IMG/VR virus record: IMGVR_UViG_3300032246_000450 | Span: 1-41,527 of that record | Strand: one strand, 5' to 3' | Source: a virus | Length of the DNA: 41,527 bases | In this document: piece by piece, positions 12,201 through 32,787 of the stretch | Layout of the letters: each line of letters starts with the position of its first letter | Position numbering within the stretch: the first letter of the stretch is position 1 | Notes under the pieces: generated by a model | What the model was told of the DNA's origin: nothing | What the model saw: only the letters and a program-made list of their open reading frames with translations | Databases searched by the model: none | Position numbers and translations under genes: made by a program

Positions 12201-12996
12201 TACATGGCTTAAAGAACAATTAGGTGATATTACCATTGGTGATAAGAGCTTAGACACAATCATTAGGCAAGGGCCTCTTAATGCGCTTACTGGGTGGGAT
12301 GTTGGTAGCCATGTAAGCATGTCTGATTTATTCTTTAATACTGAATTTAAAGAAGGTAGCAATAAAGGCGTAAGAACTGAAATTGCAAACTACGTAATGT
12401 CTCTTGCCCCTCCATCAATTACGATGATGGTAAACATGATTGAGGGTATTTCAATGGCAACGCATGGAGAAACTAGAAAAGGGTTTGAAAAAATTGTCCC
12501 ATCCGCTGCATGGCGAAACCTATTTACTTCTCAAAGATACGCTACTGAGGGTGAAACAGGTAAAAATAATGAAAAGATTTTAAACGCCAGAGCTATGCGT
12601 ATATCTGAGCTTGTTGGCCAAGCGGTTGGTTTGCGTCCTGTTATCCTTAAAGATATTAAAGATGCAACACAGGCCGAATTTAAACTAAGACAAAAAGTTG
12701 AAGGCAAGCAAAGTGAATTGTTAAATGATATGTTCAGGGCGTATAGCAAACAAGATGTGCCCGAATACAAACGTCTATACCAAGAAACGTATGAGTTCAA
12801 TAAAAAGTATTCTGCAACTTATCCTGAGTATGAAATTGACGAAGATTTAATTAACAAATCGTTTGATGCTAAAGAAGAAGCAATTTCAGAATCTTGGAGA
12901 GGTGCTAGGGTCACAGAGAAAAATGTAGTCCCTGCATATAGGTTGCTATCTCCATCTCGTAAAGCCGCTGCCGAGCGAGAAGCGCAATCAAAATAA
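6238..12996 (+). CDS. Giant virion protein (2252 aa) with HELLH metallopeptidase-like motif
   Basis: It starts 5 bp after the previous stop with no clear Shine-Dalgarno, so translation is probably coupled. The N-terminus has two ~22-residue repeats beginning ATNPDTG and ending in a Trp. Residues 300-420 contain a hydrophobic, helical region (QLPYMIAGIATGSEAAVLVP). A Pro-rich linker is at about 486-493 and a long low-complexity Glu/Ala/Lys region runs to ~1000. HELLH lies at 1068-1072 with a downstream PEEFLAYG (1147-1154) that could supply the third zinc ligand, as in gluzincin-type peptidases. The C-terminal ~1000 residues are helical, with hydrophobic segments near 1930-1965. Size and location match very large ejected or polyvalent phage proteins analogous to T7 gp16. 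The peptidase role is inferred from the motif only. Confidence 0.6.
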   Translation: MAVQTATNPDTGERVALVDGEWKPVVKTATNPDTGARAFLVGDQWLVNETTAKPAPKVTPKEEPVVPRETVTEERPDLGSPMGESFIYEVASSGAPKRQSVLQGKQLPAPTAPTVDKYVLDPKFVTGLEAQLNAMPEEERQAKLDKLATRPDVYGRAAKLIQQRYENYNAITQPTISKAFDPRLEAQTERFIQQDASAETAQAEAERQARRGQIGRNLAEVTETPEAVQKGMEYKLPADATPFEQTLNTVQRGAKLGLLGTETAIRGTHRFIGDMLGMDLPGFDTKKNLDKINEFTQGMGENASKPLQIVEGAISSIAQQLPYMIAGIATGSEAAVLVPMFTNAFGQNYDEARRAGLDPETSTVRSTANSFFEVLGEKAGLGAQMKALKASTKGIPTSDLVAYYAKALAKEVPGEELTYGGQTVVDTVLGLKPNTDWKGFLKGAVDTMLSTVTQGGLMMAGGAGINKAVRTLAGPQQIQQEQQQEVPPPPPPPADQTVPIAPNLNKIAETPAEEKIAATKVPTVDKEAKIKKLAEDYMNSGYPEDDALAQAKDEVNAELGITPEAAGPIESNKLKAWPQAMLEGTLDLQLKKPAEKRDKGLMAQIEAELIRRQGEQNVTRPITTPTGVSTGAPSEPATTVPAGGVGGAQPDGVVSTSENAGLPPSGEATQPTPIEEAPKVEEKIAPAPPVPPITNVDVSNTSAYFEKRDELLKQSDEAHAEFEKAAEEVTRLDQAPTEFVSNGSLDVDARDAAKKTAEIKYNEAKAKFDAIYNQIEEFDAARKASKETKGAELGTETTETTETKQTTQEGQAQSTPTKRGPKGARLTPEEKAAKAAASKPKVADNTAADRANKKYGAQLEEAAKPIDPDTETDKVEAAEQEKKDLRRTALEELIKAQAKVGNSPAGKRIKALLAKHATPQQIEDIKKSMAERKKRLASYTKENVLTGNLETRGYNASATVGRRHNTSPVNRGFNKATNAAQAIQQIVKTGNFFQKLLARKLSGFVNGVSFHVIEKGQPLPEVLQRNMDTWGRASAIYIRDEATGKRSIYVRGESFGRYHGVNNVDVLHELLHAATNQKIYLGIYSSAKGLELDAALTKFTKELTNIMIRAEQHYNQLKEQGALPQEVIDRVESTRDENGDLAIFEQPEEFLAYGMSDENIQDFLMGMEGRQKDETAFSSFVRAIMKLFGIGDGYYNGFSDLVNVTDNILTSDKTAQMRMIERGEMKAAQIAKGQTEKVSATTTQQDLDKIAEDNALVKKNLEALAVSTDPEIVGEAISTLQVLRNPSKLLGATVRAVNGLGETAKSFLLNIPTTDAVAALSNIDSLKRANIELERMAGMGKQMLDSASKLVDSIEKRFDEANDPTLHKKVDLFTYATQGINPVTNKNVPQINTMWNSLGPVGQSIFKDVVKYYDHMYKYTGTLLKQIVAEASQGTSQGPVILKQLNDLLAADNRIESYVPLLRDQGGRFFIRIKDSGAFFIRDSVAKRDALVDNISKKTGKTRKQLIEDGDITVGNNVADLRKTALSSSALLKEIVTLVETSPTSPQMSIDDISRQDVTDSIIQLWLQLQPEQSMRKGFIHRKTTPGYDVDIVQGLVRSAVKFSIQIPKLKYGRMIRNSISSAKSYIAQTPEMTPYVTEMERRADSVLNPPPPNANPIQQKTVATLRFLNSMAYTYYLSQATALANTISAYELGVPQLLKKHSAVEVTTEMGKLMAVWSSLSKKDVNGNLIMPTIAGSSAVTDNASDNAEQKQRKSEDRKAINAMKALNVNESTAARAMYGKIEIPSEHYGSKTKKAKYIAKQVATLGVGEIIHATERISREVIYLASFRLNRNKALAKFRKTLAYQTATDKVAAEAKYIDENFDALTLAAKKDVDQSLFNYSTANRPAWLRSDVGQFLFQFMMWRLSAAQFIARNFIGMVKPMDGDTRAECMRAFFAVLGTSWSVAGTVGMPLLGTVFAFMSALYDRERDKLPADMRQLDPKTWYKTTWLKEQLGDITIGDKSLDTIIRQGPLNALTGWDVGSHVSMSDLFFNTEFKEGSNKGVRTEIANYVMSLAPPSITMMVNMIEGISMATHGETRKGFEKIVPSAAWRNLFTSQRYATEGETGKNNEKILNARAMRISELVGQAVGLRPVILKDIKDATQAEFKLRQKVEGKQSELLNDMFRAYSKQDVPEYKRLYQETYEFNKKYSATYPEYEIDEDLINKSFDAKEEAISESWRGARVTEKNVVPAYRLLSPSRKAAAEREAQSK

Positions 12997-16076: not shown

Positions 16077-16316
16077 TTACTTTCGCTTTTTATGCTGACG
16101 CATGAACGAAGTAATCAGCTCACTATGCTCCCGAGAAGGAATGCTACTCCCCCAAAACCAATTGTAAACAGTTGCCCTGCTTACACCTAAGTACTTAAAA
16201 ACATCGTTCACTGGAATACTTCGTTCGATGCAATATCTGCCTAAAGCTACACCCAACGAAGTAGTATCTGCTTCTTTATTGGCTTCGACCAAACGTTGAC
16301 TGTATCCATAGCTCAT
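16077..16316 (-). CDS. Small helix-turn-helix protein
   Basis: 79 aa. Residues ~35-62 (IPVNDVFKYLGVSRATVYNW) fit a Cro/C1-like helix-turn-helix followed by a basic tail (RQHKKRK). Similar small HTH proteins are common in phage replication modules. The ATG lies 1 base from the stop of the upstream gene (TAATATG). It is one of the few candidates in the window for a protein that binds the 13-bp palindromes at 23059-32571, but nothing in the sequence links them directly. Confidence 0.65.
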   Translation of the reverse strand: MSYGYSQRLVEANKEADTTSLGVALGRYCIERSIPVNDVFKYLGVSRATVYNWFWGSSIPSREHSELITSFMRQHKKRK

Positions 16317-23035: not shown

Positions 23036-23225
23036 TAGTAATAAATAAAATATTTACCCTAACATTGTTAGGGGTCGGGGGGTTAAGCAGATTACATGCC
23101 CCCCGTCATGTTAGAGGTCTACCAGCTAGCAAACTTCTTCCACTGCGAGACTAGCGGGTAGTACAGACACCGTCACATCTGCAAGGCTAGGTCATCCATA
23201 TCTTTATGCACACTCGCAGTTAGAA
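23036..23225. other. Intergenic region with possible folded element
   Basis: About 190 bases without a gene. ACTGCGAG (23142-23149) and CTCGCAGT (23213-23220) are an 8-bp perfect inverted repeat enclosing about 63 nt, within which ACTA/TAGT (23150-23162) can form a hairpin. G-run/C-run segments near 23071-23105 can also pair. It could be a structured RNA at the 3' end of the upstream transcript, or a DNA site. No tRNA T-arm is evident on either strand. Confidence 0.4.
23059..23071. repeat. 13-bp palindrome CTAACATTGTTAG, copy 1
   Basis: Two 6-bp arms (CTAACA/TGTTAG) around a central T. Flanks extend the arms to CCCTAACATTGTTAGGG. It lies upstream of the VRR nuclease promoter at 23001-23035. 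Read leftward it could fold as a hairpin followed by a U-rich stretch. Confidence 0.95.
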
Positions 23226-23711
23226 TTAGATATGAAGTTTCATAATGGCACGCTCTAAATACCATTGTGCTTTCTTAAGGTCTTCTAGTTCGTTGCCCTT
23301 GTGTTTAGCCCTACTGACGTACTTGATGACATTACCTAGGTGATACCCCAACTCCTTGGCTTCAATGAAGTCAATAGTTTCAATTCCACCTGTCTTGTAA
23401 TGTGGAGGGTGATTGACTGGATCGGGCATAGGTATCATTTCAGGCGGTTGCCATTCTCTATTTTCGGTTGATTGCATCCTTAACTTGGGTCTACCCAAGC
23501 CCGCTTTATACGCAAGGTCTCTGTTCATGGCATTGATGTTATCCATGTGTGTATTTATACTTTTCTCAATCGCTGCGTGTTTCATCTTGTGTTTAACTGC
23601 GTAGACATAAGTAGATGCTACCTTAAACTTCTTGGCTATTTCTGCCGTAGTTGCTTCAGGTTTTGCTTTTAAATACTCACGTATCTGTTGCGCTTTATTT
23701 ACTTTCTTCAT
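23226..23711 (-). CDS. HTH plus DUF3310 protein
   Basis: 161 aa with AAGGAAC before the ATG. Residues 6-42 (QQIREYLKAKPEATTAEIAK ...) look like a winged or simple helix-turn-helix. Residues ~97-160 (DPVNHPPHYKTGGIETIDFI, LGNVIKYVSRAKHKG, LEDLKKAQWYLERAI) are the DUF3310 domain, common in phages. Its biochemical role is unsettled. The fusion to a DNA-binding-like N-terminus suggests a regulatory or DNA-associated role. Confidence 0.8.
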   Translation of the reverse strand: MKKVNKAQQIREYLKAKPEATTAEIAKKFKVASTYVYAVKHKMKHAAIEKSINTHMDNINAMNRDLAYKAGLGRPKLRMQSTENREWQPPEMIPMPDPVNHPPHYKTGGIETIDFIEAKELGYHLGNVIKYVSRAKHKGNELEDLKKAQWYLERAIMKLHI

Positions 23712-23916
23712 TGCTTAGTTCCTTGTTTATAAAATCGGTAAGAATTTCTCTCATCTTAGTTTGCTTTGTATAAGGATAATGTCGGTCAAAATAGTCCAAC
23801 ACATTTTTTGGTATACGCAAGCTAACATGCACCAGAGCGGGTTTCTTACCAAGACCCCGTCCCGATTTCTTTCTTTCTGTTCCCCATTTAAGGCTCTCAA
23901 TGTTATCAAATATCAT
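23695..23916 (-). CDS. Ribbon-helix-helix-like small protein
   Basis: 73 aa from the ATG at 23916, chosen because GGGAGG lies 6 nt upstream; the more distal ATG at 23940 has none. The segment LVHVSLRIPKNVLDYFDRHY then TKMREILTDFINKEL has the beta-strand plus two helices pattern of ribbon-helix-helix DNA-binding proteins, reminiscent of BrnA-type antitoxins. No toxin partner is next to it. It overlaps the DUF3310 gene start by 17 bp. Confidence 0.65.
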   Translation of the reverse strand: MIFDNIESLKWGTERKKSGRGLGKKPALVHVSLRIPKNVLDYFDRHYPYTKQTKMREILTDFINKELSNEESK

Positions 23917-24157
23917 CTTCGTCCTCCCAGTAAATATCATCAGGCCATACTAAGACAGGTGTATCCTCTCCAATGTAAGCGCCTTCAATGTTGTATTCAA
24001 TGAACTCACGTGCTTCTTCCGCACTCATACCATCTCGGTTCATCAATATCTTTCGCATAATCTCGGCATCGTAAACCAATACACCTACCATAGAATTGCT
24101 ACGCCATATCGACGCTGGGCCTAGAATCGCTTCGTCAAATCCGTCATACTTTTTCAT
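23906..24157 (-). CDS. Small conserved phage protein, unknown
   Basis: 83 aa from the ATG at 24157, with GGAGG 7 nt upstream; an ATG at 24163 directly abuts that site and is unlikely. The pattern FDEAILG ... VLVYDAEIM ... MSAEEAREFIEYNIEGAYIG followed by a very acidic tail (WEDEDDI) is familiar from short phage proteins of unknown function. The end overlaps the next gene's ribosome site. Confidence 0.65.
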   Translation of the reverse strand: MKKYDGFDEAILGPASIWRSNSMVGVLVYDAEIMRKILMNRDGMSAEEAREFIEYNIEGAYIGEDTPVLVWPDDIYWEDEDDI

Positions 24158-24422
24158 TTGCATACCTCCAATTTAAAAATCCTTCTTCTTCTAAAGCCGT
24201 TGCAATTTCCTTTGCGGTCACCCTACCACAATTGGGTACTTGCCATGCTAAACTTTCTTTACTTAAATGTTTAAACACATCAAAAATGTTGGCATCGTGC
24301 ATAGGTTTCATTCGGAATGATATTTTGTCTTTTGTAAACCAAATCCCCTCTTTGCTGATTGACATGACTACATTCATCCCCCGAACGCTTAATTTTGTTT
24401 TCGCAAATTCTTCTAGTGTCAT
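24144..24422 (-). CDS. Small protein with alpha-CTD-like helix-hairpin-helix
   Basis: 92 aa. Residues 56-80 (LAWQVPNCGRVTAKEIATAL) resemble the helix-hairpin-helix of the RNA polymerase alpha C-terminal domain (LxNxGRKTxxEI). The N-terminal part is beta-like (NVVMSISKEGIWFTKDKISF). A nucleic-acid-binding role is plausible. The ATG overlaps the stop of the membrane peptide gene (TAATG). Confidence 0.55.
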   Translation of the reverse strand: MTLEEFAKTKLSVRGMNVVMSISKEGIWFTKDKISFRMKPMHDANIFDVFKHLSKESLAWQVPNCGRVTAKEIATALEEEGFLNWRYANEKV

Positions 24423-24607
24423 TATGCGTGTTCCTCAGTATGTGTATCTACCTTGTCAAAAAACTCCGCTCTTAAGCCCTTGTGCTCAATTAACGTAGCT
24501 ACAAAACTTCTATGGTTTCTATCCTCCTGTCGGTAGTGCACTGCCATGCCTGTAGCCAGTCCCGCCCATGCCAATAGGAATATCTCCGTAAGTGTAAATT
24601 CAATCAT
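24422..24607 (-). CDS. Small single-pass membrane protein (61 aa)
   Basis: GGAG about 9 nt upstream. Residues ~4-22 (FTLTEIFLLAWAGLATGMAV) form one transmembrane helix, followed by a charged cytoplasmic-type tail (HYRQEDRNHRSFVATLIEHK...). It resembles small inner-membrane proteins often seen in phage early regions. A holin or superinfection role is possible but not shown by the sequence. Confidence 0.6.
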   Translation of the reverse strand: MIEFTLTEIFLLAWAGLATGMAVHYRQEDRNHRSFVATLIEHKGLRAEFFDKVDTHTEEHA

Positions 24608-24720
24608 TTATTCAACTCCTCAAAAATTAACCAAAAGACTACGATCAACATAGCCATTGCTCCTACTAAACCAAACAGAATCATTACCCAAGATACGATG
24701 TTATAGAACGAATCAGTCAT
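24604..24720 (-). CDS. Membrane peptide, 38 aa
   Basis: Strong AAGGAGG upstream of the ATG at 24720. The product MTDSFYNIVSWVMILFGLVG... is almost entirely one hydrophobic helix (residues ~8-33) ending in EELNK. The stop overlaps the ATG of the next membrane protein (ATGA), so the two are probably made together. Confidence 0.65.
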   Translation of the reverse strand: MTDSFYNIVSWVMILFGLVGAMAMLIVVFWLIFEELNK

Positions 24721-24947
24721 AACTCCTCCTTGAATGCAAACTCCACGATTGTTTTAATTGCTATAACTACAAACTCGGGGTTATCATCATCTTCATACAT
24801 TTCTGCAATTCGTTTTTGAATGTCCTCAAGCGCCGCCCTATACTTTTCACCTGCTAAAGCATCCTTAAGTTTCTGCTCGTCATCAGGGTATGCAAACGAT
24901 AACGTTGCGTGCATCTTCTCTCCTTTGTGTATTACTCCTGCGTTCAT
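24717..24947 (-). CDS. Small protein, unknown (76 aa, or 65 aa from an inner start)
   Basis: The ATG at 24947 overlaps the upstream stop and has AGGAGG 4 nt away. An inner ATG at 24914 has AAGGAG at good spacing and would give MHATLSFAYPDDEQKLKDAL..., so either may be used. The protein is helical and acidic (EMYEDDDNPEFVVIAIKTIV). No function is recognised. Confidence 0.6.
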   Translation of the reverse strand: MNAGVIHKGEKMHATLSFAYPDDEQKLKDALAGEKYRAALEDIQKRIAEMYEDDDNPEFVVIAIKTIVEFAFKEEL

Positions 24948-25117
24948 GTGACCTCCTCAGTTTTACGCTCGATGTTCTTTGACAAAAGCCAGTTCCCACT
25001 ATCCCTCACTTGACGAACCGCCTTCACCCACTTGCGGATGTTGGCTCGGTTCTCATGGTAAGGTAAGTAATCAACTGACCATAATATTCTTGCTCGTTTT
25101 AACATAATAATATTCAT
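24944..25117 (-). CDS. Small basic protein, unknown (57 aa)
   Basis: The start at 25117 is preferred because GAAAGG lies about 6 nt upstream. A further ATG at 25141, inside a 13-bp palindrome copy, has no ribosome site. The sequence LPYHENRANIRKWVKAVRQVRDSGNWLLS matches a type of short phage protein (N-x-R-x-W-x-x-A-V ... W-L-L). Function unknown. Confidence 0.6.
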   Translation of the reverse strand: MNIIMLKRARILWSVDYLPYHENRANIRKWVKAVRQVRDSGNWLLSKNIERKTEEVT

Positions 25118-25134
25118 AGTTAACCTTTCGTGCC

Positions 25135-25147
25135 CTAACATTGTTAG
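25135..25147. repeat. 13-bp palindrome, copy 2 (central T)
   Basis: Exact CTAACATTGTTAG between the genes at 24944-25117 and 25150-25953. Read leftward it contains an ATG (25141) in frame with the downstream gene. Confidence 0.95.
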
Positions 25148-25149
25148 GT

Positions 25150-25953
25150 CTACATTGTGATTACATATACATCTTCAGTTACTCGGCAACCTATGTCCTC
25201 GATACATTGCTCTATCTCTACAAGTTTGAGCATACCTAGCTTAGCCCGATACTCTTCGGGTAGCGTAGTATCCATGTAATGTTGGACATTGTCAAGAGCT
25301 TTTACTAGGTATCCACCCTTATGTATGGCAATATACACACCATTGTTATTTATCTTCTTGCCAATAGTTTCTAGTACTTTAGTTTGATTACGTATTTCCT
25401 CATACGAATCTAAGTCTACACGTTTTCCTACGCCTTCAATATACGCATTGAATGTTTCTCTGTGTACAGAGAGGGCAAACCTGTTTATGTCAGATCTAAG
25501 ATTGCGCATATACTCATTTGCTCTTTCTGCTTTCCTGTATCGTTGGCTCTCCACTACACGTTTTGCTTTATCCACATGCTCAGCCATGATCTTGGCTATA
25601 GACTTAGGCACAAAGTGTTTCTGCGCTTCTCTTATGGCTTTCTTAGGATCGCTAGTGACAATGTGATCCTTGCGACTACCTATCGACTCGGCCTGTACCA
25701 ATACCGCATACTTACCCGATCTATTAGAATAGTCATGCTTGAGACCACCAACTCTTTGCTCATCCACATGAACGTGAAACCTATCCATTCTGTATGTATC
25801 GTGACCCATAGATTCACCGATTAGCTGCCATGCAGGGTTAGTGGTAGCTAACGCATACACAACCTCCTCCAATGGTTTAGGAATGTGATACAAGTTTTTA
25901 TCTGTCCCTTGCATCTTCTTTACAGTTACATTGCTCAATAACATTGGGTTCAT
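25150..25953 (-). CDS. Conserved phage protein, unknown (267 aa)
   Basis: GAGGT lies 6 nt before the ATG. The product starts MNPMLLSNVTVKKMQGTDKN and is alternately beta-rich and helical, with a long basic helix region (residues ~115-165, KHFVPKSIAKIMAEHVDKAK...). No catalytic motif stands out. The ATG overlaps the stop of the 54-aa gene upstream. I cannot assign a function. Confidence 0.6.
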   Translation of the reverse strand: MNPMLLSNVTVKKMQGTDKNLYHIPKPLEEVVYALATTNPAWQLIGESMGHDTYRMDRFHVHVDEQRVGGLKHDYSNRSGKYAVLVQAESIGSRKDHIVTSDPKKAIREAQKHFVPKSIAKIMAEHVDKAKRVVESQRYRKAERANEYMRNLRSDINRFALSVHRETFNAYIEGVGKRVDLDSYEEIRNQTKVLETIGKKINNNGVYIAIHKGGYLVKALDNVQHYMDTTLPEEYRAKLGMLKLVEIEQCIEDIGCRVTEDVYVITM

Positions 25954-26114
25954 TTTAATACCTCAATAATAGTTGCAGTTACCAATACGATAGCATTCAA
26001 AGGATCTGATGCCAGAACCTCTATTTGATTGCCGTGTTTATCTTCCACAATATGCGGAACTTTCTCTAGCTTGTCGCTCTCGATTGTGTTTGGATATTTA
26101 GTCCATGCTTTCAT
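25950..26114 (-). CDS. Small protein, 54 aa, unknown
   Basis: ATG at 26114 with GGAG about 8 nt upstream. MKAWTKYPNTIESDKLEKVP ... KHGNQIEVLASDPLNAIVLV; its stop overlaps the next ATG (ATGA). It has a beta-rich look and no recognised domain. Confidence 0.6.
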   Translation of the reverse strand: MKAWTKYPNTIESDKLEKVPHIVEDKHGNQIEVLASDPLNAIVLVTATIIEVLK

Positions 26115-26128
26115 TTGTTATCTCCAGT

Positions 26129-26509
26129 TTAAATGTTGATGTCTACTACTCGACTGATATTTAGTACATTGTCAGCACCATCAGATTCATTAGCCTCAAT
26201 GTCGTTCAACTCCTCTCCTATACGCACGAACTCATAAGCCCATGTCAGCTCGCTACCATCCTTATCAGCCAACTCTTTGAACTGCTCGATCATTTCATTG
26301 AACTCAATAACGTCTTCATAAGTGTCGTACCATTTCACATCATCGGCTTGAAACAAAATGTATTTGTCGCCGTTCGTTTTCTCATCCTCTTTAAAAGATT
26401 CTTTTACCCATTGGCTTTTAATGTTCTCGTCTATGAATAGCTTCATAGTTGGATAGTCTTCAGGTTTGTGGCAATAAAACACTGCCGTCACTTCGCTTCT
26501 GTAACCCAT
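26129..26509 (-). CDS. Conserved phage protein beginning MGYRSEV, unknown
   Basis: 126 aa with AGGAGG before the ATG. The start MGYRSEVTAVFYCHKPEDYP and a following pattern of beta strands and acidic helices (VKWYDTYEDVIEFNEMIEQF) recall a family common in phages of many hosts, without known function. It is strongly acidic. Confidence 0.65.
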   Translation of the reverse strand: MGYRSEVTAVFYCHKPEDYPTMKLFIDENIKSQWVKESFKEDEKTNGDKYILFQADDVKWYDTYEDVIEFNEMIEQFKELADKDGSELTWAYEFVRIGEELNDIEANESDGADNVLNISRVVDINI

Positions 26510-26518
26510 ACTAACCTC

Positions 26519-27370
26519 CTACCAATCGAACTTGCCAATGATCGCATCAACCTTCTGCTTGAGGTTCTCACGTACGACCGCCATCTGTTTGATATCCTCG
26601 ATGTCTTTACCTACTAACGCACGCTCAAGGTCTTGCCTAGCTTCTTCTAGCTTCGGATCGTTGGTCACATTGAGCTTGGTCAACAGCCCACACAAGTCTT
26701 GCGCATTCGTTAGTAGACTGTCGTGATAACGCTTCTTCTCATCATCTCCGTTGTCGGTTAGCTTCTCAGACATTGCAGTTAGCGTAGTATGCAAACGCTC
26801 CCAAGGTGCTTTCATCGCATCGGCAAGTCTCTCGCTGAACTTGGACTCGTACTGTGTTTTGATGTCCTCAAGGTCTGAATTACTAACGTCTAATCTAAAG
26901 TCACCACTCTCGGGGATAGGGTCAACTGATCTTCTGAATCCGAACTTACCCTTAACGTCCTCCAACTCAGGATAGTCGCTTGCCTTGTACATTGTGCCTA
27001 GACTCAGACTAGCATCCTGTACCAATTGTGGATACATGACGAAGAAGTTACTGCACATCATGTTGAATGTATGCTCATGCGCATCCATCGTCTGCTTGTA
27101 CTCCATGAATAGCTTAGTAGGTAGAAGTCTCTGACCCTTGTCTGCCCAAGGCAATGTATGTTGATTGTGATACAGACGAATTCGGGCGGCGAACTTGTCA
27201 ATATCTTTACGCATACTCGTACCCGCAAAAAGATTCTTCTTGGTTTGGCTGGCATCACGCACTGCTGATGCGTTAGTATTCACTGCGTCGGTCGTTTCTC
27301 GATCAACCTTACTCGCAGGCCATACGCTGATATTCAACTCTACTAAAACTGCTGATGAACTGATACTCAT
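26519..27370 (-). CDS. DUF3150-like protein of the MoxR/VWA cassette
   Basis: 283 aa with AGGAGA before the ATG. The N-terminus AVLVELNISVWPASKVDRET, the middle LPWADKGQRLLPTKLFMEYK and the C-terminus KLNVTNDPKLEEARQDLERA match my recollection of the DUF3150 family, which often lies beside a CobS/MoxR-like ATPase and a VWA protein in phages. The protein is largely helical. Its closeness to the two genes upstream (27803 and 29018) supports a joint role, for example as the substrate-binding or adaptor subunit. The domain name is tentative. Confidence 0.6.
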   Translation of the reverse strand: MSISSSAVLVELNISVWPASKVDRETTDAVNTNASAVRDASQTKKNLFAGTSMRKDIDKFAARIRLYHNQHTLPWADKGQRLLPTKLFMEYKQTMDAHEHTFNMMCSNFFVMYPQLVQDASLSLGTMYKASDYPELEDVKGKFGFRRSVDPIPESGDFRLDVSNSDLEDIKTQYESKFSERLADAMKAPWERLHTTLTAMSEKLTDNGDDEKKRYHDSLLTNAQDLCGLLTKLNVTNDPKLEEARQDLERALVGKDIEDIKQMAVVRENLKQKVDAIIGKFDW

Positions 27371-27510
27371 TTTGTTTCTCCTGATATTTCGTTGTAGACT
27401 ACCCTGATTACTTGCACATTGGTTGGTAGGTTGTGTGCCTCACACATACCCTCCCACGCTCTCAGACTGAACTCATCTCGATACAAATATAAAACCCCTG
27501 TTACTTTCAT
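27367..27510 (-). CDS. Small protein, 47 aa, unknown
   Basis: ATG at 27510 with AAGGAG 5 nt upstream. MKVTGVLYLYRDEFSLRAWE ... VVYNEISGETK; its stop overlaps the ATG of the DUF3150-like gene (ATGA), so it is probably translated with it. No domain recognised. Confidence 0.6.
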   Translation of the reverse strand: MKVTGVLYLYRDEFSLRAWEGMCEAHNLPTNVQVIRVVYNEISGETK

Positions 27511-27519
27511 AATTTCTCC

Positions 27520-27771
27520 TTATGGTTTGACTGGTTTACCCGCTAGCTTGGCTAGCCTGTACTTCTCATCACTGATTGTCTTAGCACTGACTGTGCTATC
27601 GTTCGCATACACGTGGTATGTGTGATAGGCTTCACCCAATGTGTTACCCTTATCGTCTTTGGATATGTAGCGCTCCTCATATCTCTCCGAATTCCCTAGT
27701 ATCTCTAACATTGTTAGGGCATCCTTGGTCGGTACAACATAGTCGGTGTACCCAAAAGTTACTATCATCAT
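27520..27771 (-). CDS. Small protein, unknown (83 aa)
   Basis: The start at 27771 (MMIVTFGYTDYVVPTKDALT) has AAGGGG about 7 nt upstream; a longer reading from 27849 has no ribosome site. One 13-bp palindrome copy (27705-27717) lies in the coding region and encodes Leu-Thr-Met-Leu. The protein has a beta-rich start and a Lys-rich end. Unknown function. Confidence 0.6.
   Translation of the reverse strand: MMIVTFGYTDYVVPTKDALTMLEILGNSERYEERYISKDDKGNTLGEAYHTYHVYANDSTVSAKTISDEKYRLAKLAGKPVKP
27705..27717. repeat. 13-bp palindrome, copy 3 (central T)
   Basis: Exact copy inside the coding region of the 83-aa gene 27520-27771, where it encodes Leu-Thr-Met-Leu. Confidence 0.95.
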
Positions 27772-27802
27772 ATTGTTCCCCTTCTGTTTACTTAAGTTAA
27801 TG

Positions 27803-29002
27803 TTAATCTTTGATATGAATAGTCTTGCCGTTCGGTGAAACTGCATCATTACCTCCTACGATTACCCACAGAATAGGTGCAGTCCAGTCGTTGCCCCAGT
27901 CACCGCCTACGTATCCGTCGGTAAGCACAATGATGCACTCGGGCTTGATGTCCTTCTCCTTCAGATATGTAGAGACTACTGATGGTTCAGTCCCCCCTCC
28001 GTCTTTCGGTTTAGTGGAATCAGTTATTCCTGCTACTTCAGACCCTTCGTATTCTTCGTGAGCCACAACCGCTGAACCCCAATAGATTAAGTCAATCTTC
28101 TCGGGATGCACTTCCTCTGCTACACCTTTGACCTCGGATAAGAACTCAGCCAACTCTTTCCCTCCGATTGACCCTGACGCATCGATGGCAATCACGATGT
28201 GCCCAACCCTTTCACCTATCATGCTAGGCATATACACGCCTGTGGATAAGAACCTACGATTCACCTTACGCCATGATGAGGTATCCTTGGCATTGCATGT
28301 AGTTTTGACAAAGTCACGCAACACCTCACGCCAGTCCACTTTGGGTGCAAGCAACTCTTCAAGCTCTCGGTCTCCACCGCCTTTGCCCTTACCCGCAATC
28401 TTTTGTTGAGCCATCAACCCTTGCCTTATGGCTTGGTCAATATCCCTAGCAAGATCACGCTTCTCATCATCGGACATGCCCTTGGTCGCTTCGTCCCAGT
28501 CATGCTCATCGAACCCTTTACCTCCTTCTCCGCCCGATCCATCGTCCTCCTCCTTCAGTATGTCGAACACTTGCTTGGAATTCATACCTCTGAACCTCTC
28601 GTCGATCAAGCCCATCACCTCGCCTTTCTTCAGCCCTGACTTGTACGTAGGCATCTGAATGACTGAGCAATCGGGATCACAATCTCTGAGCATGATGTTG
28701 ATAACGTAGTCACATGCTTGGTTTGCCAACGAATGATTCTCATCATGTATCTTCTTATATGTAGTCAAGTGACGGTACATTTTGTGAGACGCTTCATGTG
28801 CAACTACAAACGCAAGCTCCTTGTCACTTAGCTCTTTGACGAATGCACGCCCGTACTTCTCGTCTCGTCCATTGGTACATGCAGTCGGTGTGTTATCGTC
28901 TACTGACGTACGCCCAACCATTAGGATGCCAGAGAGCAATGCGAACTTCGGTGAACGCATCAAGCTGATCTTAGCCTTTTGAACTTTTCTTTCCTCTAAC
29001 AT
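27803..29002 (-). CDS. Metallopeptidase-like plus VWA domain protein (DUF2201 type)
   Basis: 399 aa. The N-terminal domain carries HEASH (69-73) followed by NQACDYVIN (94-102), the pattern of DUF2201-type putative zinc peptidases. A Gly/Asp linker is at about 150-210. The C-terminal VWA domain has the MIDAS motif DASGS (274-278), GGGT (335-338) and TDG (361-363), predicted to bind a divalent metal and a partner. The ATG at 29002 sits inside a 13-bp palindrome copy, with AAGGAG 6 nt upstream. It is paired with the AAA+ gene 15 bp upstream, like MoxR-VWA chaperone pairs (for example RavA-ViaA). Target unknown. Confidence 0.85.
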   Translation of the reverse strand: MLEERKVQKAKISLMRSPKFALLSGILMVGRTSVDDNTPTACTNGRDEKYGRAFVKELSDKELAFVVAHEASHKMYRHLTTYKKIHDENHSLANQACDYVINIMLRDCDPDCSVIQMPTYKSGLKKGEVMGLIDERFRGMNSKQVFDILKEEDDGSGGEGGKGFDEHDWDEATKGMSDDEKRDLARDIDQAIRQGLMAQQKIAGKGKGGGDRELEELLAPKVDWREVLRDFVKTTCNAKDTSSWRKVNRRFLSTGVYMPSMIGERVGHIVIAIDASGSIGGKELAEFLSEVKGVAEEVHPEKIDLIYWGSAVVAHEEYEGSEVAGITDSTKPKDGGGTEPSVVSTYLKEKDIKPECIIVLTDGYVGGDWGNDWTAPILWVIVGGNDAVSPNGKTIHIKD

Positions 29003-29008
29003 TGTTAG
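28996..29008. repeat. 13-bp palindrome, copy 4, containing a start codon
   Basis: Exact copy; the leftward reading ctaacaATGttag holds the start codon (29002-29000) of the metallopeptidase/VWA gene. Any protein bound here would cover the initiation site. Confidence 0.95.
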
Positions 29009-29017
29009 CTCCTTGTA

Positions 29018-30082
29018 TTACAGTAAGTCTTGATTCTTAGCAACCCAGTCGCTGAATGCTTTGCAACTGAACGCTATACTCTGCTTGCTCGGTGTCTTTG
29101 CAATGTTGATCGCAAAGACTGCTTGCCACTCGGCATCGAACCTCTCCAAATACTCCATGAATGGAGTAATCGTCTCCTTCGTCATACGTGCTATCGCACC
29201 GAATACTACGATGGCACATGCCCCCGCCGATGTCGGTATGCTCGTAGTCTTAGGGTTAGCAATGGTCGCTTCCCATGTCGGTAGCTGATCTGAGAACTCT
29301 ATGTATGCTTGCATATCCCTAGCACCCGATTCACCAATAGCACCCGTCAAGGATGCAATCACAGTATCAGGGTCAAGATGCTTTCTAGACCTAACAATGT
29401 TAGAGGCAGTCTCCAAGGATCTTGGGGATACGAACGCCTTCTGATTGCTTTTGGGTGTGTAGATGTAGGGGTTGTCTCCTTGCCCGCCATCAAGATAACT
29501 TGCCAATACTTGCGGAAACCTATTCACCCATGCAATCACCTCGGGCTCTAGACCTTTGTTGATCGCCCACTCGATCCACTCCTCGGCATCGGGCTTACGT
29601 ATACGTACGGGCACTAAGCGATTACGACTATGTGCTTTCAAGCTATCTCCAACCCCGTCGGTCGTGAGGTTACCCGTCAAAAACACAATTGTATTTTTGG
29701 TGATCGGGATATCGCCCAGTCTAGGATTAGCTTTCTCTAGCATGGGGTGTAGCATATTCTTTACAGGGTCTGCACCCTTGGTGAACTCGTCGAGCATAAT
29801 CACCAGTGGTTTGCCCGCGTGGATCTTGAACCTAGCATTAGGATAATACTTGGTAGTCTTGGACTCGTGGTCGATCACAGGCATCGCAATATCACCTAAG
29901 TCCATGTTCGGCACATCGATGTAGGCATGCTCGTAGCCCATGTCCTTAGCTATACTCTCCAATAGAGATGACTTCCCTATCCCTGGTTCACCTTCAAGGA
30001 GAAAACGGGTCTCGGGGTTTGCTTGAATTAGCTTAGATGCTTGCTTCAAGGTAATTGATTTTCCAAACGTTACTTCTGACAT
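29018..30082 (-). CDS. MoxR/CobS-like AAA+ ATPase
   Basis: 354 aa with AAGGAA before the ATG. Walker A GEPGIGKS (31-38), Walker B VIMLDEF (94-100) and sensor 1 TGN (136-138) are intact. The family works as a hexameric remodelling ATPase together with VWA partners, here the gene just downstream. A palindrome copy (29391-29403) lies within the coding region. A promoter at 30178-30207 and another palindrome copy lie upstream, so the cassette can be separately controlled. Confidence 0.85.
   Translation of the reverse strand: MSEVTFGKSITLKQASKLIQANPETRFLLEGEPGIGKSSLLESIAKDMGYEHAYIDVPNMDLGDIAMPVIDHESKTTKYYPNARFKIHAGKPLVIMLDEFTKGADPVKNMLHPMLEKANPRLGDIPITKNTIVFLTGNLTTDGVGDSLKAHSRNRLVPVRIRKPDAEEWIEWAINKGLEPEVIAWVNRFPQVLASYLDGGQGDNPYIYTPKSNQKAFVSPRSLETASNIVRSRKHLDPDTVIASLTGAIGESGARDMQAYIEFSDQLPTWEATIANPKTTSIPTSAGACAIVVFGAIARMTKETITPFMEYLERFDAEWQAVFAINIAKTPSKQSIAFSCKAFSDWVAKNQDLL
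29391..29403. repeat. 13-bp palindrome, copy 5 (central A)
   Basis: Exact CTAACAATGTTAG inside the AAA+ gene, read there in another frame as Ser-Asn-Ile-Val. Confidence 0.95.
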
Positions 30083-30112
30083 TTTTAGTTCCTTCTTTCT
30101 ACGTTGATATGC

Positions 30113-30125
30113 CTAACAATGTTAG
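30113..30125. repeat. 13-bp palindrome, copy 6 (central A)
   Basis: In the leader between the promoter at 30178-30207 and the AAA+ gene start at 30082. Confidence 0.95.
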
Positions 30126-30177
30126 GGGTTACTGACACAATTCGCTTCGCTCATTCAGATTTTTGATCTTATATAAC

Positions 30178-30207
30178 ATTGTACCACACAATAATAACCA
30201 ATGTCAA
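30178..30207 (-). promoter_or_regulatory. Sigma70-like promoter for the AAA+/VWA cassette
   Basis: Leftward TTGACA (30207-30202), 18-nt spacer and TACAAT (30183-30178), with TGGTAC spanning into the -10. A palindrome copy at 30113-30125 lies in the leader, roughly 50 nt after the predicted start. The same layout occurs at 30887-30915. Confidence 0.7.
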
Positions 30208-30211
30208 GTCT

Positions 30212-30367
30212 TTAGTCCTGACGGAGGACATAAGCCTTCACGGTTTTAAGCGTGGGGTATTGCAAAGCAAACCTTTCTTTTGCTTTCGTCATGCTTCGGC
30301 ATTCGTAGGTTTCTGCAACCCACATGCCAAACCTCGGGCTAAACCCAGTCACATAGTATTTGTTCAT
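30212..30367 (-). CDS. Small protein, 51 aa, unknown
   Basis: ATG at 30367, overlapping the stop of the membrane peptide gene (TAATG), with GGAG about 9 nt upstream. The product MNKYYVTGFSPRFGMWVAET ... KAYVLRQD is basic with a WVAET core. Its stop lies just before the -35 of the promoter for the AAA+ gene. No domain recognised. Confidence 0.55.
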   Translation of the reverse strand: MNKYYVTGFSPRFGMWVAETYECRSMTKAKERFALQYPTLKTVKAYVLRQD

Positions 30368-30453
30368 TAGTTAGGTCTCCACAGTAAAAAGTCTAGGGTT
30401 AGCACAATAAGTGCAATGAGGAAAACAATCCTCGATACAGTTTCAAATTTCAT
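30367..30453 (-). CDS. Membrane micropeptide, 28 aa
   Basis: ATG at 30453 with GAGG 6 nt upstream. MKFETVSRIVFLIALIVLTL... is a single hydrophobic helix ending FLLWRPN. It overlaps both neighbours (11 bp with the 48-aa gene, 1 base with the 51-aa gene). Its size is at the limit of what can be called from sequence, but the overlap pattern and ribosome site support it. Confidence 0.55.
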   Translation of the reverse strand: MKFETVSRIVFLIALIVLTLDFLLWRPN

Positions 30454-30589
30454 TTTGTGCCTCGATTTCCCCTAACAATGTTAGGGCTTCCAATATGTTG
30501 ATATGAGCAAAGTCATAGTTACCCTGCACGATGTTGCTCTCGGCTTCCTTGATAAGCTCGATTGCCATGATGTAATCGCCTTCAGTCAT
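30443..30589 (-). CDS. Small acidic protein, 48 aa, unknown
   Basis: ATG at 30589 with AAGGAG 8 nt upstream, overlapping the stop of the zinc-ribbon gene. MTEGDYIMAIELIKEAESNI ... EALTLLGEIEAQNEI is a pair of amphipathic helices. A palindrome copy (30472-30484) is in frame and encodes Leu-Thr-Leu-Leu. Confidence 0.6.
   Translation of the reverse strand: MTEGDYIMAIELIKEAESNIVQGNYDFAHINILEALTLLGEIEAQNEI
30472..30484. repeat. 13-bp palindrome, copy 7 (central A)
   Basis: Inside the 48-aa gene 30443-30589, encoding Leu-Thr-Leu-Leu, just upstream of the membrane micropeptide start. Confidence 0.95.
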
Positions 30590-30807
30590 GCTCGGTTCTC
30601 CTTGGGATTAGTCTGTCTAAGTGTTGCGGGTGCTGACGTAGAGGTAACAAACATATAATTGCCTTTTGTGTACTCTTGGATTACGCACCATGATGCACGC
30701 TCTGCTATCGCTTGGTCTTCACCACAGAATAGGCATCGCTTGTATCCAAGTGCCCATCGTTCGATGTGGATCTCATCTCCGCAGTCTAAGCATTCTTTCC
30801 AGTCCAT
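30586..30807 (-). CDS. Small zinc-ribbon protein
   Basis: 73 aa with AAAGGA before the ATG. C6-x2-C9 and C25-x2-C28 (CLDCGDE ... CLFCGEDQA) form a four-Cys zinc ribbon, followed by a flexible tail. Such proteins in phages are often regulatory or RNA/DNA-binding. It is the first gene after the promoter at 30887-30915 and a leader palindrome (30829-30841). Confidence 0.7.
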   Translation of the reverse strand: MDWKECLDCGDEIHIERWALGYKRCLFCGEDQAIAERASWCVIQEYTKGNYMFVTSTSAPATLRQTNPKENRA

Positions 30808-30828
30808 AAAAGTCCTTTGTAGTTAGTC

Positions 30829-30841
30829 CTAACAATGTTAG
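30829..30841. repeat. 13-bp palindrome, copy 8 (central A)
   Basis: In the leader between the promoter at 30887-30915 and the zinc-ribbon gene start at 30807. Confidence 0.95.
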
Positions 30842-30886
30842 GGGGTTGATTTGAGCAAGAAAAGAATTTCCTTTGCTTCAGCCTAT

Positions 30887-30915
30887 ATTGTACCACTAAG
30901 TTATACAAATGTCAA
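30887..30915 (-). promoter_or_regulatory. Sigma70-like promoter for the zinc-ribbon gene and downstream genes
   Basis: Leftward TTGACA (30915-30910), 17-nt spacer, TACAAT (30892-30887): near-consensus on all counts. The palindrome copy at 30829-30841 lies about 40-50 nt after the predicted start, the same relation as at the 30178 promoter. Confidence 0.75.
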
Positions 30916-31431
30916 GTCTTTGGTCATAGCTTTGGTCTGAGGGGGGACTAGAGCGACTTTAAAGTTATACACAAGCTAAAGTATTACTAAGAACTCTAGA
31001 ACTACATAGGAAGTGTCGTTGCGCCATGTTTGTGGCACAATGTAATGTATGTTACGATTTTGAAAATGTGGACAATCTGTGCATAACGTTTGTAAGTGCT
31101 TGATTTGCAATAAAAAAAAAGAGTGTGTTATGAAAGTTACAAAGTTATAGTTTTTTTTATATGATATCTAAAGAGGGGTTGTGGGACAAATTGCACTTGC
31201 TGACTTGCTTGCGCTTTCACTTTGCTTTGGCTACACTCAATTTGGTAAAAAAACGTAACATGTAACATTACTTATAAATCAACAACTTACGAGCGAGCTG
31301 TAAATAACAACAGTGCTTTTTTCGTAACATTAGGCATAACATTAGCCATAGCCAAGGCAAGGAACTGGCATAATTGAATACTGTGTTTATATACACTACA
31401 TAATGGATACGCTAGTAATTGTAAGCGGACG
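30916..31431. other. Long non-coding region, candidate replication origin
   Basis: About 515 bases with no credible gene. DnaA-box-like 9-mers occur at 30965-30973 (TTATACACA, + strand), 31078-31086 (TTATGCACA, - strand) and 31067-31075 (TTGTCCACA, - strand, one mismatch). Nearby A and T tracts (A9 at 31112-31120, T8 at 31151-31158) and generally AT-rich sequence could be an unwinding element. TAACAT units recur further right. An origin fits an otherwise gene-dense phage, but this is an inference. Confidence 0.45.
31325..31348 (+). repeat. Direct repeat TAACATTAGsCA, two tandem copies
   Basis: TAACATTAGGCA (31325-31336) and TAACATTAGCCA (31337-31348). The TAACAT core also occurs twice near 31255-31270 and is the half-site core of the 13-bp palindrome family, so these may be degenerate binding sites or iterons. 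Confidence 0.55.
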
Positions 31432-31456
31432 CAAAAAAGCCCGCACTAGGCGGGCT
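31432..31456 (-). terminator. Intrinsic terminator of the two-gene leader operon
   Basis: AGCCCGC (31438-31444), loop ACTAG and GCGGGCT (31450-31456) make a 7-bp stem; read leftward it is followed by six U (31438-31433). It follows the gene at 31495-31785. The core CCCGCACTAGGCGGG is identical to that of the terminator at 13002-13018. Confidence 0.85.
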
Positions 31457-31460
31457 CGGG

Positions 31461-31473
31461 CTAACATTGTTAG
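31461..31473. repeat. 13-bp palindrome, copy 9 (central T)
   Basis: Between the terminator at 31432-31456 and the end of the gene at 31495. Confidence 0.95.
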
Positions 31474-31494
31474 GTCTATTTTTCGCTTTTAAAA

Positions 31495-31785
31495 TTAAAC
31501 ATTAACACTACGTACGTAATTAGAAACACCTTCGGATTGTGCACGATTGTGCAAGCACCGATCAAAATAAAGATCATGGGCAAACGCAATCCAAAAAGAT
31601 GTGACATAAGAGTAAGGTAAACCATTGTCCTTGAAGAACTTTGCAACCCTTGCACGATGAGGGTTTGTCCTAGTATTACCTTGCAACCCTTCGGATTTTC
31701 CTACACTAAATCTAATCTCATCAAGTAACGCTTGGATCATTTTGTCCTGAGCTACTCTCTCCATGATGTTTACTCTGTTACGCAT
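31495..31785 (-). CDS. Leader-operon protein, unknown (96 aa)
   Basis: The start at 31785 (MRNRVNIMERVAQDKMIQAL) is preferred because AAGGGG lies 6 nt upstream; the ATG at 31800 has none. The protein is basic and helical (RTNPHRARVAKFFKDNGLPY, VTSFWIAFAHDLYFDR) and I do not recognise it. It is flanked by palindrome copies on both sides and followed by a terminator, so it may belong to a regulatory circuit. Confidence 0.6.
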   Translation of the reverse strand: MRNRVNIMERVAQDKMIQALLDEIRFSVGKSEGLQGNTRTNPHRARVAKFFKDNGLPYSYVTSFWIAFAHDLYFDRCLHNRAQSEGVSNYVRSVNV

Positions 31786-31809
31786 AATTTTCCCCTTCAT
31801 TTATTTGGA

Positions 31810-31822
31810 CTAACAATGTTAG
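31810..31822. repeat. 13-bp palindrome, copy 10 (central A)
   Basis: Just upstream of the gene starting at 31785, 16 bp from copy 11 and with the opposite central base. Confidence 0.95.
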
Positions 31823-31838
31823 GACTACTTACATAACC

Positions 31839-31851
31839 CTAACATTGTTAG
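31839..31851. repeat. 13-bp palindrome, copy 11 (central T)
   Basis: Between the two leader-operon genes. The centre-to-centre distance to copy 10 is 29 bp, close to three helical turns, which would favour cooperative binding on one DNA face. Confidence 0.95.
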
Positions 31852-31882
31852 GCTAGGGTTTCCCCTAACCTAACCCTCACCC

Positions 31883-32428
31883 TTACTTAATCATAGAAGG
31901 GTCAACCTTCAAAGCATTCAGAGCGCTAGTGATAAACGTGTGGGCTTGCTTTTGCTCATTCGTTAGTACGTGCTCATCTTTCTTACATGCTTTGTACAAT
32001 TTTGAGAGCTCTTCAATCAATCGGAGGTTTAGACCTCTCTTAGCATTTGCACCATTGGACTCGCCCTCGCCCTCTGATATCTCGCCCTTTTCAATCGCTA
32101 ACGCTTTTACGTGGTTGCGACCTTCGTTTCTAACCCGTGTCCACATAACGCTAGGGTTTTTGTGTCCAGCTTTGCGTAATGCGTCTCTGAACTTCTGTGC
32201 TATTTCAAGTGTAGGCTTTGCGCCTTCCCTAGTATCGCTATGCTCGATGTCATACCATGCGGTTTCACTAGCAACCATTCGGGCATCATAAGACGTAAAG
32301 GATTTAAGCTCAGAGCAAAGACGAACCGCTAGCTCTTTAGTTGCACCATACTCTCTTTTAACTGTATCCGCTACGTTAGCAATAAGCTCGTCGATTGTAG
32401 GCATTGTGTTTTCAGTGATTGTTGTCAT
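31883..32428 (-). CDS. First leftward gene from the divergent region, unknown (181 aa)
   Basis: The start at 32428 (MTTITENTMPTIDELIANVA) has AGGGGT upstream; a longer open frame to 32536 would run through the promoter at 32484-32512. The protein is helical and basic in the middle (KFRDALRKAGHKNPSVMWTR, NEGRNHVKALAIEKG), then has a Gly/Glu linker and a C-terminal helical part. As the first gene transcribed from the control region, it is a candidate regulator and a possible ligand of the palindromes, but no DNA-binding motif is obvious. Confidence 0.65.
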   Translation of the reverse strand: MTTITENTMPTIDELIANVADTVKREYGATKELAVRLCSELKSFTSYDARMVASETAWYDIEHSDTREGAKPTLEIAQKFRDALRKAGHKNPSVMWTRVRNEGRNHVKALAIEKGEISEGEGESNGANAKRGLNLRLIEELSKLYKACKKDEHVLTNEQKQAHTFITSALNALKVDPSMIK

Positions 32429-32483
32429 ATAGACCCCTATTAAAGTTAAGTTATATACAAAGCCCCTCGCCTTGTATGATTGA

Positions 32484-32512
32484 ATAATAGTACAATGTCC
32501 CACAGAATGCAA
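32484..32512 (-). promoter_or_regulatory. Leftward early promoter
   Basis: TTGCAT (32512-32507), 17-nt spacer and TATTAT (32489-32484), leftward. Transcription would start near 32477, giving a ~50-nt leader before the ATG at 32428. The palindrome copy at 32559-32571 lies upstream of it. Confidence 0.55.
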
Positions 32513-32558
32513 GTAAATAGTATAAAATAATTTCATAGAGGATACGGGTCAAAAAAGG

Positions 32559-32571
32559 CTAACATTGTTAG
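32559..32571. repeat. 13-bp palindrome, copy 12 (central T)
   Basis: The outermost copy, upstream of the leftward promoter at 32484-32512 and at the edge of the divergent control region. Confidence 0.95.
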
Positions 32572-32787
32572 GGTACGGATACCCACCCACCCAAGACAGG
32601 GAGAAGGGACTCCCAAACGCACTACACACTGTGCCGCTCATTAGATACTTCATTTTAAAAAATGCCCCCCCCCTACCCCCTTCGTTAATATCCGCAAGCA
32701 CTCCACCCCCCTAGATATAAAAACACCCCCCGTCACTTTTTATTTATTCGACCCCCCGGGGGGTATATATTTTTGGTAGGATTTATC
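32572..32787. other. Divergent control region with C-runs and a GC palindrome
   Basis: No gene is seen. Five runs of five or more C on the + strand occur at 32665-32673 (nine C), 32676-32680, 32706-32711, 32726-32731 and 32752-32757. The last is half of the perfect 14-bp palindrome ACCCCCCGGGGGGT (32751-32764), followed by TATATATTTTT. The complementary G-runs could form a G-quadruplex. Packaging or regulation are possible roles. Confidence 0.5.

Follow-up and report, generated by a model that had tools for sequence, protein, structure and literature searches.

Operator spacing changes together with the first early gene in a clade of uncultured phages, suggesting dispersed control of early transcription

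The viral record IMGVR_UViG_3300032246_000450 of IMG/VR (positions 1 to 41,527, called here the window) carries 12 exact copies of the 13-bp palindrome CTAACA-W-TGTTAG, all of them among the early genes. We observed these sites, their distribution, selection on them at the DNA level, and their co-variation with the leader gene, the first gene of the early module, whose family changes with the length of the spacer between the two half-sites. We think it probable, with some reserve, that the leader product is an autoregulated repressor of the early genes that acts at dispersed roadblock operators.

A first-pass annotation, made from the letters of the window, had listed 12 exact copies confined to the upstream half of the early module. 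This claim was borne out, since all 12 coordinates are exact matches against an expectation of 0.01 in shuffled sequence. They lie within 23059-32571, the promoter-proximal part of the early module, which runs on the minus strand from ~32.5 to 13.2 kb; the late genes, on the plus strand and starting at 32.86 kb, contain no exact copy. No one-mismatch copy was found anywhere in the window, and allowing up to two mismatches gave two further copies (5928 and 30076), which is at the chance level of ~1.4. Read along transcription, the center base is A in seven copies and T in five. The copies at 27705 and 29391 were counted as coding, while that at 28996 provides the ATG of a DUF2201/VWA gene and is preceded by AAGGAG. 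The copy at 31461 directly precedes an intrinsic terminator, and the others fall between genes or in leader DNA, mostly 17 to 60 bp 5' of a start codon. A tRNA search of the window found none.

Related loci were fetched by terminase (80 loci) and by the early AAA ATPase (80 loci). The palindrome is conserved throughout a large clade whose members are uncultured and mostly from fresh water, and its spacer length differs by genome. Exact-copy counts among the fetched loci were bimodal, many having 7 to 16 and many none, and in much of the zero-copy class the half-sites are unchanged but stand 2 bp apart (CTAACA-NN-TGTTAG). Spacers of 3 bp (L014/L027) and 0 bp (CTAACATGTTAG, in G019/L439) were also found, together with the altered half-sites CTCACA-N-TGTGAG (L075), CTGACA-NN-TGTCAG (L089 and L090), and GTAACA-NN-TGTTAC (L155); the TGACA variant was seen in L029 as well as in L089. 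In related records of 53 to 66 kb, the sites listed (places are listed for some records only) form one contiguous early block. Nearly all sites of any one genome use a single spacing, mostly 1 or 2 bp, and this genome-wide uniformity points to a dimeric DNA-binding protein that would co-evolve with the whole regulon. One site with a 1-bp spacer, perhaps a relic, persists in the AAA gene of L159, a genome with 2-bp spacers. By terminase, the nearest cultured relatives are DSL-LC04, HTVC027P, 023Pt_psg01, and HTVC023P, and both the leader gene and the sites are absent from the 50 kb read of each of these four.

Most early genes are common to the two spacing classes, with equal identity. In an all-against-all comparison of open reading frames (ORFs) from ~160 loci, the strongest opposed pair consisted of two leader families, A (50 loci with 1-bp and 3 with 2-bp spacers) and B (1 and 28 loci, respectively), which occupy the same locus, that of the first early gene, and are distantly homologous along their length (hhalign E value of 2.6e-15). 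The leader set comprised 171 distinct proteins, of which 82 in family A and 64 in family B were classified by spacing, the rest being unclassifiable. Family A was found with a 1-bp spacer in 77 of its 82 members (76 with TAACA and 1 with TCACA half-sites), with 2 bp in three and with 3 bp in two, and family B with a 2-bp spacer in 56/64 and a 1-bp spacer in 8/64. On the leader tree, spacing changed 6 times versus 47.5 in shuffles, a comparison that shows clustering only. On the AAA tree, spacing changed several times and gave four well-supported independent pairs, in which the leader family was concordant in ~3.8 of 4 on average.

The presence of the leader gene also went with that of the sites. 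Among 22 long records, a full-length leader gene was accompanied by 7 to 21 sites, or by sites with a 0-bp spacer (G019), and the records G008, G016, and G020, with no leader gene, had zero or one site. G014 has six sites, and its leader locus was probably cut off at the contig start, because the contig begins near the AAA gene. Clade phages without a detected leader gene have other short repeated palindromes, CTGTAGCTACA and AGGGTTAACCC, five copies each (L440 (G016), L150/L060 (G008)), possibly reflecting replaced regulators. Two paralogous leader genes are close together in the single genomes L031, L187, L170, L192, L204, and L225.

Four candidate binders had been named in the first-pass annotation. 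Of these, the leader protein 31883 appears to be the best supported and was singled out because its family changes with operator spacing. The helix-turn-helix (HTH) protein at 16077-16316, a conserved single copy in 15/15 records tested, and the ribbon-helix-helix (RHH) protein at 23695, found with equal identity, were rejected as spacing determinants, as both occur in both classes. We consider it improbable that one of these, or a host factor, is the binder and that the leader protein co-varies through linkage only. The HTH protein is universal in the records tested, and spacing class partly tracks phylogeny, but neither protein separates the two classes, whereas at independent switches it is the leader gene whose family changes. 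A genome-specific spacing would be hard to explain by a host factor.

The leader protein had no significant relatives in Pfam, PHROG, PDB, or BFVD, no matches in cultured phages, and no relatives in bacterial genomes, which were searched for a host or prophage. Fold searches gave only weak helical Z-scores, uninterpretable and no sign that the fold is new. AlphaFold2 models, with a predicted local distance difference test score of 88 (window leader) and 82, show helical structure plus short strands, with a pair of helices at the C terminus. A nearly invariant NPS..W.RVR segment opens a long helix in the leader model, which makes this a candidate recognition helix. In family B, 62/62 proteins from TAACA genomes have Tyr directly before the invariant Trp, where those of the two TGACA genomes have Ile or Met. 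Within family A, the motif xGA goes with a 1-bp spacer (71/77) and S[AS]ER with 2 or 3 bp (4/5). These associations between residues and sites, in which relatedness is uncontrolled, are leads. An insertion in the HxNPS loop was rejected as setting the spacing, since L229 has the insertion with a 1-bp spacer.

The operator within the AAA ATPase gene allowed us to separate selection on DNA from selection on protein. It is exact in 39/43 genomes with 1-bp spacers versus 1/23 with 2-bp spacers, and the latter mostly keep the SNIVR peptide using other codons. This synonymous-codon test shows that selection acts on the DNA at this operator. A 14-bp site in the AAA reading frame would introduce a stop (TAG), which may be the reason for the loss of the operator in the genomes with 2-bp spacers. 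Among the sites, the outer pairs of the palindrome showed no covariation beyond independence, G-U was almost absent, the second-best letters were symmetric (C then A in the left arm and G then T in the right one), and the A/T center was balanced (163 versus 146). The lack of RNA-type covariation and the codon selection support the earlier preference for a bound protein over RNA structure. A hairpin for translational control was rejected for lack of covariation and an N4-type hairpin promoter for lack of fixed geometry, and we give either reading hardly any credence. The sequence CTAAC-AWT-GTTAG could form a 5-bp stem with a 3-nucleotide loop, and many sites adjoin ribosome-binding sites (RBSs), but a 0-bp spacer leaves no such loop, and sites are also present upstream of promoters and within genes. 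Unlike the hairpin promoters of the N4 virion RNA polymerase, the sites have no element at a fixed distance, and their distances to promoters are variable.

Placement relative to genes and promoters was far from random. Sites fell in conserved coding sequence in 36% of cases versus 76% of random positions and within -20 to +30 of a conserved coding start in 41% versus 7%; a start codon with a preceding Shine-Dalgarno sequence lies inside ~17% (1-bp spacer) to 25% (2-bp spacer) of the sites. At the leader promoter, one operator is usually at ~-56 to -84, often with a second at +32 to +66, and the separation of the two is most frequently 113 bp and mostly 108 to 132 bp. Around other predicted promoters, nearby sites were enriched at -100 to -75 and +25 to +75. 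Overall, sites near promoters were found mainly at -100 to -50 or +25 to +75, and the promoter core was avoided, 0/685 sites being located at -50 to +25. This geometry disfavors occlusion of the promoter as well as the positions usual for an activator. It fits roadblocks that RNA polymerase would meet on its way, for which GalR OI at +53.5 (PMC4693257) and LacI (PMC4132739) offer comparisons. That the leader protein binds but acts positively, as an activator or an antiterminator-like factor loading onto early transcription, seems to us unlikely. Sites do adjoin early promoters, and the leader protein is probably produced first, but promoter distances vary by tens of bases with no conserved element at a fixed distance, and many sites are in or between genes without a detected promoter, one of them ahead of a terminator.

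Other conserved sequences were found near the leader promoter. A box, AATTATTGTTYMCG, is located just 5' of the -35 element, at ~-121 from the leader start, in 71/163 loci (e.g., L053 and L078); it may be an UP element or be bound by another protein. In 43/163 loci a second palindrome, CACASTGTG, precedes the leader start by ~230 bp (at 32625 in the window, between the divergent early and late genes), and GGGTGGG tracts are beside the upstream operator in 114/163 loci (32582-32592, minus strand, in the window).

Under the repressor reading, the product of 31883-32428 would be a homodimeric DNA-binding protein and the palindrome its operator. The leader gene would be turned on from the early promoter at ~32.5 kb, and its product would bind the ~12 dispersed operators, which flank its own promoter and internal early promoters and are positioned at early-gene 5' ends. 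Bound dimers would most likely impede transcription of the early module in a roadblock or stoperator-like manner, with looping at the leader promoter as a possible addition. The outcome would be a negative feedback in which early transcription is shut off while the site-free late genes take over. As the protein evolves, the spacer (0 to 3 bp) and the rarer half-site variants would change with it at nearly every site in a genome. Direct binding, the dimeric state, repression, and the timing of leader protein action are what we infer from sequence comparison. Searches for tyrosine and serine recombinase domains (PF00589 and PF00239) and for ParA (PF13614) found none in 15 records of uncertified completeness, which makes an early shut-off in a lytic cycle likelier than lysogeny. 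The earlier remark that no partition pair is visible agrees with this, and no partition context was found either. Centromere or DNA-organizing sites (an N15-like partition or a nucleoid-like protein) are a very improbable alternative: they would account for exact sites that are dispersed and for a DNA-binding candidate that is small and helical, but no ParA was found in the 15 records, and the sites keep to the early genes, with a concentration at gene 5' ends and promoter flanks.

Several points weigh against the repressor reading. The eight family B proteins with a 1-bp spacer and the family A proteins with 2 or 3 bp break the association, mostly as separate subclades, and mixed spacings occur in G011 and in the L164 group. 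The independent-pair test gave a P value of 0.125 and is underpowered. L428 combines a Tyr protein with sites of both the TAACA and the TGACA type, and the fold searches recognized no known DNA-binding fold in the leader protein. The promoter geometry depends on matches to a consensus, and near most sites no promoter was detected. Distances between operators lack clear helical phasing, which weakens looping, and looping at a fixed helical phase was rejected on this ground. Finally, an activator or a DNA-organizing role would leave much the same traces.

Among known systems, the mycobacteriophage L5 (Cluster A) stoperators, already suggested as a parallel by the first-pass annotation, seem the closest in logic. 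Their sites are ~13 bp, asymmetric, oriented with transcription, and present in 20 to 30 copies genome-wide, and the L5 repressor, which belongs to temperate phages, binds as a monomer that has an HTH and a Stoperator domain (PMC6550527, PMC9283540). What the two systems have in common is a large number of ~13-bp sites per genome, found at promoters and in short gaps between genes, an autoregulatory site where the repressor is encoded, and the joint divergence of repressor and sites between relatives. However, here ~12 palindromic sites are restricted to the early genes with spacings of 0 to 3 bp, and neither an integrase nor a sequence relation of the protein to any known family was found. 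As to the domain make-up of the L5 repressor, the leader protein gave no Pfam or PHROG match and no PDB fold match. The idea of a dispersed operator-like system holds, but the asymmetry, the whole-genome spread, and the prophage genes of L5 were not found, which places the system outside that family. The operators of Escherichia coli GalR flank a promoter at -60.5 (OE) and +53.5 (OI) (PMC4693257). Here also two palindromic operators flank a promoter, typically at ~-72 and +48, with its core free, but the protein is another one, the sites are many more, and the separations (mostly 108 to 132 bp) lack clear helical phasing. The C1 repressor of phage P1 also has many operators scattered over the phage genome; these are asymmetric, and P1 is temperate. 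Phage N15 sopC consists of dispersed inverted-repeat partition sites, similar in this respect, but no ParA-type ATPase was found here. A literature search turned up no publication on the palindrome motif.

Sequence alone defines a candidate regulator family without a recognized relative, plus its DNA sites. We regard it as an even call that this is a new sequence-specific DNA-binding family that, through a dozen dispersed operators, shuts down the early region in apparently lytic phages, with a dimer spacing (0, 1, 2, or 3 bp) that is rewritten along with the protein at nearly every site in a genome. If so, stoperator-like dispersed control, a feature of temperate actinobacterial phages, would be extended to uncultured phages that are apparently lytic, and the reading predicts a testable early-to-late control across a large clade. 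The 171 distinct proteins, with spacers of 0 to 3 bp and several half-site types, are a natural data set for a protein-DNA recognition code and for the question of how all the sites of a regulon switch specificity together.

The coordinates of the operators, the leader gene, and its promoter are given in Table 1. The leader ORF is open from 32536, and its start was placed at MTTITENTM from relatives.

Table 1. Leader gene, its predicted promoter, and proposed operators in the window (aa, amino acids)
Feature	Position	Strand	Basis
Leader gene, first of the early genes, encoding a 181-aa family A protein proposed to bind the operators	31883..32428	-	Family switches with operator spacing
Predicted early promoter of leader gene, TTGCAT-17-TATTAT	32484..32512	-	Sequence; relatives have TTGATT/TTGCAT-17-TATAAT at same place
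Operator 1, upstream of leader promoter, center about -88	32559..32571	.	Exact match
Operator 2, immediately 3' of leader gene	31839..31851	.	Exact match
Operator 3, 29 bp from operator 2, 5' of RBS of 31495 gene	31810..31822	.	Exact match
Operator 4, immediately 5' of intrinsic terminator (31457-31437)	31461..31473	.	Exact match
Operator 5, ~+46 from predicted promoter TTGACA-17-TACAAT (30915-30887)	30829..30841	.	Exact match
Operator 6, ~19 bp 5' of ATG of 28-aa ORF	30472..30484	.	Exact match
Operator 7, ~+52 from predicted promoter TTGACA-18-TACAAT (30207-30178), ahead of AAA ATPase gene	30113..30125	.	Exact match
Operator 8, within AAA ATPase gene, codons TCT AAC ATT GTT AGG	29391..29403	.	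DNA-level conservation in genomes with 1-bp, not 2-bp, spacers
Operator 9, includes DUF2201/VWA gene start codon	28996..29008	.	Exact match
Operator 10, inside or near start of 27520 ORF	27705..27717	.	Exact match
Operator 11, ~17 bp 5' of an ATG	25135..25147	.	Exact match
Operator 12, about -64 from predicted promoter TTGACA-16-TATACT (23035-23008)	23059..23071	.	Exact match

Two other features of the window were noted. The AAA ATPase and the DUF2201 metallopeptidase/VWA protein form a pair (27803-30082) that is kept throughout the clade, and a 2252-aa protein encoded at 6238-12996 has a C-terminal match to DarB-like antirestriction proteins.

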